NCBI GenBank assembly: GCA_017519865.1
Contig: JAFWRQ010000006.1
Span: 1 to 57,789 of the forward strand
Origin: Bacteroidales bacterium
GTDB taxonomy: Bacteria > Bacteroidota > Bacteroidia > Bacteroidales > UBA932
Reading direction: 5' to 3'
DNA length: 57,789 nucleotides
The notes under the pieces are model-generated. The model ran no database searches. It saw nothing but the letters and a program-made list of their open reading frames with translations, and was not told the origin of the DNA. Each line of letters begins with the position of its first letter. Within the stretch, counting starts at the first letter, position 1. This document shows, piece after piece, positions 4,561 to 40,427 of this stretch. A program made the position numbers and the translations under genes.

Positions 4561-4736
4561 CAGGCCTCTCTTCCCCGTTTTTTTTCCCCGCAGTTCTTCC
4601 CCGCTGCTCTCCTGCAGCAGTTCTCCAGTAGCAGACACTCATCCTAGAAAAAACGCCGTCAGCAGTCACTCCACCTATTACCCTTCTGCAGAGCCTAAGC
4701 GTCTCCCTTGATAAGCAAATCCCGAAACCGCTTTAT

Positions 4737-4757
4737 CCTTCGGGCTTTTCCCGAAGG
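4737..4757. repeat. Hairpin repeat, copy 1 (CCTTCGGG / CCCGAAGG)
   Basis: Perfect 8-bp stem (4737-4744 with 4750-4757) with a 5-nt loop. The same 21-nt unit recurs at 23810-23830 with 19 of 21 bases identical, also just downstream of a plus-strand gene. Confidence 0.7.
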
Positions 4758-4777
4758 AAACCCCTGCAACTTACCGT

Positions 4778-4795
4778 ACCCTTCGGGGTTTTTTG
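4778..4795 (+). terminator. Weak intrinsic terminator with UUCG loop
   Basis: ACCC-TTCG-GGGT (4778-4789) followed by a run of Ts. The short stem makes it marginal; an A/C-rich arm at 4759-4764 could compete by pairing with GGGGTT. Confidence 0.5.
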
Positions 4796-4805
4796 AAGGT
4801 ACTGG

Positions 4806-4919
4806 GCCACAGAATGAATGCTGGTTCTTACAGTTTCATTCTGTGGCAAGAAAAGCACTTCAAATGACCTATTTGCTGCCACAAAATGAATCATTCTGCT
4901 CCTAGGTTCATTCTGTGGC
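4806..4919. repeat. Two tandem palindromes (GCCACAGAATGA / TCATTCTGTGGC)
   Basis: Unit 1 (4806-4847) has a perfect 12-bp stem and an 18-nt loop. Unit 2 (4878-4919) has a 13-bp stem with one A-C mismatch and a 16-nt loop. Both units are exactly 42 bp and are separated by 30 bp. Outer arms are conserved while the loops differ. Confidence 0.85.
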
Positions 4920-5045
4920 TTGCGGAGTAACTTTTCAGGCAGATCCTCCAGTTCTCCCTTCAATTATCCTTTCTATTTCCAGCATTATACTCCTCTTATT
5001 TCCGGAATTCCTGCCCGGTGGTAGTTTTTTACCCTCTAACGACCC

Positions 5046-5195
5046 GGCAAATCGTCGAGAACGGCAAGGAGGCTCGGAGAGGGTTACAATGGGGTATTGT
5101 GTTCTAGACCCAGCGAAATTCACGAGAACGAGAACATCAAATAACCCTGGAGGGCCGTAGAAAGGGCGTCCACGTCCGCAACGATTTGCGGAGAA
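5046..5195 (+). ncRNA. 150-nt dispersed structured element, copy A (novel candidate)
   Basis: This aligns over its whole length with the reverse complement of 40215-40364, about 112 of 150 positions identical and no net gap. Visible pairings are nested: terminal stem 5047-5055 with 5181-5189 (GCAAATCGT/ACGATTTGC), stem 2 at 5061-5065 with 5154-5158 (ACGGC/GCCGT), stem 3 at 5080-5086 with 5142-5148 (AGGGTTA/TAACCCT). The matching stem 3 in the other copy is AGGGGCAT/ATGCCCCT, so pairing is kept while bases change. The block GTGTTCT-n-GACCC-nn-CGAAATTC is strongly conserved. It is either a structured RNA or a mobile element with inverted ends; it contains no ORF. I cannot assign it to a known family. 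Confidence 0.65.
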
Positions 5196-5282
5196 CCAGG
5201 TCATTAATTGGAGAAGGAGAGGAGTGCGAGAAAAGAAGATAAAGAATAAGAGAATGGTGGAGGAGAATTGGGGATAAATGTG

Positions 5283-5290
5283 TATATTTG
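5283..5290 (+). promoter_or_regulatory. -7 promoter box for the recG operon
   Basis: TATATTTG lies only 9 nt before the recG ATG at 5300, which predicts a leader of a few nucleotides. Confidence 0.55.
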
Positions 5291-5299
5291 TGCTAAAGG

Positions 5300-7498
5300 A
5301 TGACACAATTGGGATCGGACATACAGTACCTGCCGGGGGTGGGGCCGAAACGGGCGATGCTGCTCAAGAATGAGCTCGGGGTCGCCACGTTCAGCGACCT
5401 CATCCACCTGTATCCGTTCCGGTACATAGACAGGAGCAGCATCCAGCGCATCGCGGAGGTCACTCCCGACGTGGCGCACGTCCAGGTGATGGCTCGGGTA
5501 ATCCGCGCCACACTTTACGGCCCCGGCAGTTCCGTCTTCGTACAGCGCAACCAGGCCGGGGTGGAGATTGACAACTGCCCTGCCGACAAGAACGGTGTCA
5601 AAGTCCTGAGATTCAACGCAGTCAAACGTCTGAGCGTCATCGTTGCCGACAGTACCGGCGAGATGGAGATGGTGTTCTTCAAGGGCATCAAATGGAATTG
5701 GGACCGGCTCACTCCCGGAAGCGTCTTCGTGTTTTTCGGCAAGCCGCAGCTTTTCGGTAAAAGGCTGAACATCCTCCACCCCGAAGTGGACAATCCCCCC
5801 TCGCAGGCCGACATGCCAGGCAACGTCGGTACCCTCACCGGGGTCTATACAAGTACTGAGAAACTGAAAAACTCCGGTATCACCGGGAAAGTGATGAACC
5901 GCCTCCAGGCATCGGCCCTCAACGCCTGCCTCCCCGAGATCGAGGAAACACTGCCCGAATACATCCTCCGCGAAAAGGATCTGGTCCCTTTGCGCTTTGC
6001 CCTGCGCAACATCCACTTTCCGCAGGACGCCGACGCACTGACCAAAGCGTCATACAGACTGAAGTTCGAAGAACTGTTTTTCCTTCAGCTTTCACTCCTG
6101 AAACAGAAATACATACGAAGCCGCAGCGAAGTCGGTATCCGTATGCCCAAGGTCGGAGAGCCGTTCAATGCACTGTATAAGCGGCTCCCCTTCGACCTGA
6201 CCGGCGCCCAGAAGCGCGTCATCAAGGAGATCCGCGCCGACCTGACCAGCGGCCATCAGATGAACCGCCTGCTGCAGGGCGACGTCGGCTCCGGCAAGAC
6301 CATGGTTGCCGTGCTGAGTTGCCTGATCGCCTACGGCAACGGCTATCAGTCCTGCATAATGGCCCCGACGGAAGTCCTTTCGCAGCAGCATTACGCCAAC
6401 GTCAGCCGCTATCTGGAGGGCTCCGGCGTACGCTGCGCGCTCCTGACGGGCAGCAGCACCGCCAAGGAGCGCCGCGAGATCCACGCCGGCCTCGAGGACG
6501 GCAGCATCGCCATCCTCATCGGCACGCACGCGCTCATCGAGGAGGACGTCCGCTTCCGCGCGCTCGGCCTGGCAGTCATCGACGAGCAGCATCGCTTCGG
6601 CGTGGACCAGCGCTCGAAATTGTGGGCAAAGGGCCCCGGAGTGCCTCCGCACATCCTGGTGATGACGGCCACGCCTATCCCCAGGACGCTGGCCATGACG
6701 CTGTACGGCGACCTCGACGTCTCCGTCATCGACGAGCTGCCGCCCGGCCGCAAGCCTGTCCAGACAATGCTGATCGGACAGGGCAAGCGCCGCGCCCTGT
6801 ACAAGTTCATGCGCGACGAGATTGCCAAGGGCCGCCAGGTCTTCGTAGTCTATCCGCTGATATTCGAGAGCGAGAAAATGGACCTCAAGAACCTGGAGGA
6901 AGGCTATGAAGACATCGTCAAGGCATTCCCCCTCCCCGACTACAAGGTCGCCATCGTCCACGGCCAGCAGACCAACGAAGTCAAGAACTTCAATATGTCG
7001 GCATTCGCCGCAGGCCGGGCCGACATACTCGTCTCGACGACCGTAATCGAAGTCGGCGTAGACGTTCCCAACGCCTCCGTTATGGTCATCGAAAGCGCCC
7101 AGCGCTTCGGCCTCAGCCAGTTGCACCAGCTCCGCGGCAGGGTCGGGCGCGGCAGCGAGAAGTCGTTCTGCATCCTGGTCAAGGACGAAAAGGTATCGAA
7201 GGAATCCCAGCGCCGTCTCGACCTCATGTGCGCCACGGAGAACGGCTTCGAACTGGCCGAGGAGGACATGAAGATGCGCGGACCGGGAGACCTCGAAGGC
7301 ACGCAGCAAAGCGGCCTCCCCATCGCCCTGAACATAGCCTCGCTGGTGCGTGACGGCACCATCCTGAGCGAAGCGAGGGTCTACGCCGAACACATACTCG
7401 AGTCGGATCCATTCCTGTCTTCCCCCAGGAACCTCCCCCTCATGAAGGAACTCCAGAAAGACAAGTACAACATCAAGGACTATAGCAAGATAAGCTGA
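5300..7498 (+). CDS. recG: ATP-dependent DNA helicase RecG
   Basis: 732 aa, slightly longer than the usual 680-700. RecG unwinds and regresses stalled replication forks and branch-migrates Holliday junctions. N-terminal helix-hairpin (YLPGVGPKRAMLL) and OB-fold wedge domain occupy about residues 1-280. Walker A GDVGSGKT has Lys333, motif II is DEQH (428-431), motif III is MTATPIPRT, and motif VI with LHQLRGRVGRG is present, followed by the TRG region. The ATG at 5300 was chosen because the -7 box lies directly upstream. It is the first gene of a tight operon; its TGA overlaps the ATG of the WYL gene (ATGA). Confidence 0.98.
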   Translation: MTQLGSDIQYLPGVGPKRAMLLKNELGVATFSDLIHLYPFRYIDRSSIQRIAEVTPDVAHVQVMARVIRATLYGPGSSVFVQRNQAGVEIDNCPADKNGVKVLRFNAVKRLSVIVADSTGEMEMVFFKGIKWNWDRLTPGSVFVFFGKPQLFGKRLNILHPEVDNPPSQADMPGNVGTLTGVYTSTEKLKNSGITGKVMNRLQASALNACLPEIEETLPEYILREKDLVPLRFALRNIHFPQDADALTKASYRLKFEELFFLQLSLLKQKYIRSRSEVGIRMPKVGEPFNALYKRLPFDLTGAQKRVIKEIRADLTSGHQMNRLLQGDVGSGKTMVAVLSCLIAYGNGYQSCIMAPTEVLSQQHYANVSRYLEGSGVRCALLTGSSTAKERREIHAGLEDGSIAILIGTHALIEEDVRFRALGLAVIDEQHRFGVDQRSKLWAKGPGVPPHILVMTATPIPRTLAMTLYGDLDVSVIDELPPGRKPVQTMLIGQGKRRALYKFMRDEIAKGRQVFVVYPLIFESEKMDLKNLEEGYEDIVKAFPLPDYKVAIVHGQQTNEVKNFNMSAFAAGRADILVSTTVIEVGVDVPNASVMVIESAQRFGLSQLHQLRGRVGRGSEKSFCILVKDEKVSKESQRRLDLMCATENGFELAEEDMKMRGPGDLEGTQQSGLPIALNIASLVRDGTILSEARVYAEHILESDPFLSSPRNLPLMKELQKDKYNIKDYSKIS

Positions 7499-40140: not shown

Positions 40141-40214
40141 ATCATTTTCCCCCACTCTCCCCATCCCGAGTTGCCACGGACGCCTGTAACCCCGGTGAGG
40201 GAACGGCCCGTCGA

Positions 40215-40364
40215 TTCTCCGCAAATCGTCGTGAACACAGACCACTCTTCTACGGCCTTCCAGGGGCATCTGCTGTTCACGTCCCCGGGAATTTCGTCGG
40301 GTCGAGAACACGAAAACCCATTACATGCCCCTCTGAGGCCCATAGCCGTTCGAGACGATTTGCG
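40215..40364 (-). ncRNA. 150-nt dispersed structured element, copy B (novel candidate)
   Basis: The reverse complement aligns with 5046-5195 over all 150 positions (about 75 percent identity). Terminal stem CGCAAATCGTC/GACGATTTGCG pairs 40364-40354 with 40230-40220; with the flanking CT the inverted end is 14 bp. Stem 2 is ACGGC/GCCGT, as in copy A. Stem 3 is AGGGGCAT/ATGCCCCT (40332-40325 with 40269-40262), differing from copy A in sequence and shifted by two positions but still fully paired. It points upstream of, not into, the AlkD-like gene. No ORF. Confidence 0.65.
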
Positions 40365-40427
40365 GAGGACGGGATGAAGCGGGAAAGAGAAGAAGTTAGG
40401 GGAAGCCGAGAGACGGGGGAAAACAAT

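Follow-up and report, generated by a model that had tools for sequence, protein, structure and literature searches.

What is the 150-nucleotide intergenic sequence that occurs twice, on opposite strands, in a 57,789-nucleotide stretch of a Bacteroidales genome (contig JAFWRQ010000006.1, hereafter the window): a structured RNA or a small piece of mobile DNA? Positions 5046-5195 align colinearly with the reverse complement of 40215-40364 at 112 of 150 identical positions, as a sequence-only reading of this DNA had claimed, and a BLAST search within the window's own genome (G000) gives the pair an E value of 3.1e-23. The complementary ends described for both copies are likewise real. Copy A separates a gene for a CAAX-protease-like protein from recG, and copy B separates a POT-family transporter gene from a DNA alkylation repair gene. 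Overall, the sequence is most likely mobile DNA, a small element of unusually long and regular form, rather than a new RNA, because relatives of this scattered palindromic repeat adjoin genes for hairpin-cutting transposases. We put a probability of about 80% on its being a non-autonomous REP/BIME- or 'TIR'-type repeat of RAYTs (REP-associated tyrosine transposases), which are TnpA_REP-like HUH enzymes.

The element carries the motif GTYnnGRAC four times, at a spacing of 47/26/47. With their extensions, the arms of copy A (5041..5200, forward strand) lie at 5048-5062, 5101-5115, 5121-5135 and 5174-5188, and those of copy B (40210..40369, reverse strand) at 40348-40362, 40295-40309, 40275-40289 and 40222-40236. 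Scanning the whole window for this four-arm geometry with up to six mismatches returned only 5054 and 40228; at three or fewer neither copy was recovered, so both are degenerate. Four arms were found in 6/6 full elements of G000, each with a score reached by 0/40 shuffles, at a best-scoring spacing of 47/20/47 for copy A and 47/26/47 or 47/26/46 for the others. Twelve copies (five from G000 and seven from a related genome, G105) could be aligned almost without gaps over 160 columns. They are only 45-74% identical, and the conserved columns belong mostly to the four arms and the centre. GTYnnGRAC describes every one of the 48 arms (G14 in 46, T15 in 40, G19 in 47, A21 in 47 and C22 in 48), with the middle two bases free, and the outer arms extend to CAAATCGTYnnGRAC. 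The block GTGTTCT..GACCC..CGAAATTC, previously described as conserved and unpaired, is indeed conserved; it is not unpaired, however, since it comprises the inner arm pair and the centre of a longer palindrome.

In a broader set of 75 elements from many arm families, selected for good arms, AAAT, ATTT or AATT occupies 47 of the centres, where 4.0 are expected, and 84 of 150 outer ends, where 21.9 are expected, compared with 24 of 150 inter-arm stretches (27.1 expected). The four-arm plan, together with the excess of these tetranucleotides at centres and outer ends but not in inter-arm stretches, identifies the element as two palindromic units in tandem. The unit can also be repeated many times: at one locus of another genome (L108, G141:C66), a single RAYT gene has extended arrays, 73 bases in period, on both sides, at L108 574-1351 and 2399-2738. 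Minimum free energy folding preferred one long hairpin over two in 72/75 elements with RNA parameters and 64/75 with DNA parameters; these elements were picked for good arms, so the result does not by itself demonstrate that they fold this way in vivo. Among the 12 aligned copies the long-hairpin form is 80.6% paired (82.0% in shuffles) and the two-hairpin form 75.0% (77.5% in shuffles); neither exceeds its shuffles, and the counts favour neither form.

Copy A also has a neighbour of similar architecture. An element at 4806..4919, with no strand assigned and 127 bp before copy A, bears the arms TTCATTCTGTGGC at four places with a spacing of 29/43/29 and a period of 72, and is distinct from the family of copies A and B. 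At one mismatch or fewer, TTCATTCTGTGGC occurs at 37 sites in G000 (reversed control, 0) and flanks a RAYT-like gene, C2:27912-28574, on both sides. A short palindrome at about 4735-4760, CCTTCGGG..CCCGAAGG, with several more at a locus on contig C26 (L018), is perhaps a further repeat family.

How widely is the element distributed? The G000 assembly spans 2.1 Mb in 37 contigs, of which the window is C36, and is 75% complete. Motif and model searches found five full copies with the window arm motif (C36:5041-5200, C36:40210-40369, C23:1841-2000, C16:129318-129477 and C12:15439-15602), a one-unit copy (C8:3340-3431) and two end fragments (near C9:169847 and C26:106858). Another full element, at C25:57465-57623, has the same build with other arms. 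Related elements were detected with a covariance model (E <= 0.01) in 22 of 121 genus genomes including G000, a lower bound given the strict filters of that search. Further copies thus exist both within the genome and in relatives, an outcome on which the earlier proposal had staked itself. The window arm motif CAAATCGTYNNGRAC has 13 exact sites in G000 and 12 in G105 (RUG13108); elsewhere among the 121 genomes it occurs once in each of 13 and is absent from 106. When G000 and 60 relatives (61 genomes) were searched at the nucleotide level, there was one short match outside G000, with no element visible by eye. One-unit forms occur in G000, G105 and G100. In G105, a full element (C6:23543-23687) and a one-unit element (C6:27976-28053) 4.3 kb apart share end sequences, and the shorter appears to have arisen from the longer by loss of its central part. 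In G022, G036, G083 and G112 several elements are close to a contig end, a few hundred bases away at most, as though breaking the assemblies.

Might these elements instead be clusters of binding sites for a host protein, RAYT-derived and now kept for chromosome organisation or gene regulation? Such a role would fit an arm motif that is conserved while the inter-arm stretches vary, and would also fit the nine RAYT loci examined in G000 (of 12 matches), none of which is bracketed by the window arm motif in this 75% complete assembly. A motif read by a RAYT would, however, be conserved likewise, and positions are not shared among species. Upstream of recG, 0 of 28 testable loci from other genus species carry a four-arm element at up to five mismatches, and one does at six; of the 29 loci fetched, three have 341-710 bases of upstream sequence and a fourth, with 123, was excluded. 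The other neighbouring gene of copy A was not found beside recG in any of the 29. One locus (L218) has a single CAAATCGT upstream of recG. We regard a retained host function as unlikely. The family looks old in G000, where the full copies are 49-72% identical to one another and no RAYT was found bracketed by its arms.

The proposal of a fold-conserved non-coding RNA of about 150 nt, one of two possibilities raised from the sequence alone, draws on the strong predicted folds noted above and on the pairing of arms and centre, which drops from 80.6% of cells to 36-48% once partners are slid by up to 3 columns. This collapse establishes that the palindrome is real. In contrast, no measure of covariation could be distinguished from shuffles in the 12-copy alignment, an outcome that the earlier proposal had named as refuting and which speaks against an RNA; the palindrome is maintained through conservation of one motif and not through compensatory change. 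The third stem, thought to have kept its pairing while its bases changed, fails across the family: the inter-arm stretches pair in 50.2% of cells compared with 54.7% in shuffles, and 500 of 500 shuffles equal or exceed the observed value. Nor does the suggested 2-base register shift rescue it (47.5% at +2, 41.2% at -2), and the in-register value, set against 33-48% for slid partners, reflects a weak shared palindrome. Stem mismatches in the 75 elements comprise 100 G.T and 124 A.C (38 and 39 among the elements lying upstream of RAYT genes); with G.T not above A.C, there is no RNA-like wobble tolerance on either strand. The element is also nearly symmetric, so that the covariance model matches both strands of its four source copies, of the C12 copy and of the one-unit copy in G000. 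No Rfam family reached its gathering score over the elements, in line with the sequence-only reading; the window yielded two tRNAs only, and a scan of nine loci returned one SRP RNA and one tRNA, which both belong to locus L060 but fall outside the element there. No sigma-70-like promoter was found in 4561-5320, a search whose consensus does not cover Bacteroidales promoters. Taken together, these results make a structured RNA highly improbable. They also show that, when two copies alone are compared, palindromic mobile repeats can be mistaken for structured RNAs whose stems seem 'compensatory'.

The mobile-element reading is supported by an association with RAYT genes. Across the 450-bp flanks of 79 RAYT loci, four-arm elements with three or fewer mismatches occur in 32/153 flanks, in contrast to 0/153 dinucleotide shuffles and 0/138 distant flanks taken 900-1350 bp away. 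At six or fewer mismatches, the corresponding numbers are 55, 0 and 1. Dropping three loci that had been fetched because they hold elements, along with one near-duplicate, leaves 27/145 flanks and 21/75 loci. Most RAYT flanks (121/153) have no four-arm element at three mismatches. Elements occur on one or both sides of the genes; their arm sequences vary from locus to locus and are mutually similar where both sides are occupied. Arm and protein similarity are weakly linked over 28 loci (rho 0.18; 6/2000 permutations), clearly only above 70% protein identity, where 8.1 of 9 arm positions match versus 6.1-6.4. The frequency of the pattern AACCCATTGGACC shows no excess over its reversed control (12/12 versus 13/11), and this pattern is tied to the architecture solely by paired exact sites beside the RAYT gene at C37 and at C25. 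Flanks from outside the genus and a subgroup with a shorter period were scanned with a wide geometry but no control, and that scan is excluded from these counts; in it some other G000 RAYTs scored best at periods of 50-52 bases.

For the window family itself, such bracketing was seen in one genome only, G105, where two CAAATCGT elements stand on either side of a RAYT gene. Both are degenerate, with arm scores reached by 18/40 and 7/40 shuffles, and were detected via the covariance model after being missed by the four-arm scan. The best G000 homologue of this RAYT is 35% identical and adjoins another arm family, and two further relatives (40-41% identical) have no such element. In G000, an end fragment of the window family lies near the RAYT gene at C9:170074. 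That gene (L139) belongs to a more distant subgroup and has GGTGTGCAG..GCACACCG repeats on both sides, at L139 1320-1460 and 2480-2550.

The proteins encoded beside or between the elements are HUH-tyrosine enzymes that match RAYTs by profile and by fold, including the TnpA_REP fold (4er8). The HUH motif, the catalytic tyrosine and this fold were found for the genus taken as a whole, and the window family is linked to them solely by way of G105. Scans of two single proteins against Pfam and NCBIfam gave no RAYT match, and a PDB sequence search returned nothing better than weak matches to ISDra2 TnpA (E about 0.4); the RAYT profile signal emerged across 61 homologues. By profile match G000 has 12 RAYT-like genes. 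Among 198 genomes sampled across the order, 22 have a RAYT profile match, which covers the whole length only in the two matching genus members (G000 and G145) and reaches at most 199/291 in the others. The median length is 299 aa (80 proteins), laid out as the core plus about 140 further residues; this C-terminal extension is modelled with a pLDDT of 85.2 and matched no solved structure at E <= 0.001. A MITE derived from a conventional DDE-type insertion sequence would account for the long inverted ends and for dispersed copies that carry no gene, but terminal repeats alone do not need internal arms in which the terminal motif recurs on a fixed plan of four, and the genes identified next to these elements or flanked by them encode HUH-tyrosine proteins, leaving this option with very little likelihood. 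The earlier description 'MITE-like' thus holds insofar as the element is dispersed and non-autonomous, and is amended with respect to its partner enzyme.

By analogy with TnpA_REP (PMC8266576, PMC2817692), RAYTs would move these elements as hairpins. When a locus becomes single-stranded during replication or transcription, the element could fold back on itself; a RAYT would then bind the folded arms and nick one strand using its HUH and tyrosine residues, after which the element would be copied or transferred into a new intergenic location. The two free bases within each arm may play a role like that of the bulge read by E. coli TnpA_REP. A broader proposal, which we advance tentatively and with the odds somewhat against it, is that the genus hosts a radiation of long RAYTs, many of whose loci have their own four-arm, two-unit palindrome that is read via the split arm motif and not via a GTAG guide. 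If so, HUH transposases would have a further, new way of recognising their targets, and the genus would supply a natural library in which enzymes are paired with hairpins. With as many as 12 RAYT-like genes in a single genome (G000) and element families whose arm motifs are clear, the recognition rules are readable from sequence and testable in vitro. RAYT/REP systems have been called the first domesticated bacterial transposases, and the spread of their repeats is described as poorly understood (PMC8266576).

None of the papers listed by our literature searches deals with four-arm repeats of the present Bacteroidales genus, and the closest known systems each share part of the pattern. E. coli REP/BIME sequences and TnpA_REP resemble the present case in protein fold (4er8), in paired inverted palindromes and in arms interrupted by mismatches (PMC8266576, PMC2817692), and here too palindromic repeats flank RAYT genes (32/153 flanks) and have dispersed copies. 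However, E. coli REPs are 29-37 nt long, have a GTAG foot and often exceed 100 copies, compared with about 150 nt, no foot and fewer than 10 copies found here. The canonical GT[AG]G is in fact depleted at the arm feet (12/449 versus 29.5 expected from shuffles), and exact motif sites number 13 in the 75% complete assembly, against the more than 100 copies per genome usual for REPs. RAYT subclass 2.6 (RAYT group 5) of Bacteroidetes is flanked, like the genes here, by 'atypical secondary structures' without a GT[AG]G foot and with copies elsewhere in the genome. Its proteins have a median length of 179 aa, versus 299 aa here, and its repeats are termed weaker secondary structures; the likeness is one of description (PMC6006769). 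Similarly, TIRtrons comprise RAYT-like (TIRYT) genes between long terminal inverted repeats that lack GTAG and are unrelated to GTAG REPs. Some of those repeats form moderately abundant dispersed families, as dimers or clusters, some of them self-complementary (PMC3733652), and the present repeats share the RAYT-like gene, the non-GTAG inverted repeats and the moderate dispersed families. The accessible part of the TIRtron description gives the motif GGGGWSAS and no fixed four-arm unit with a 72-74-base period, which is present here (PMC3733652). Since non-GTAG cases have already been described (PMC3733652, PMC6006769), the elements are of a known kind and not wholly new; what is new relative to those cases is the long, regular, two-unit form, diversified within one genus.
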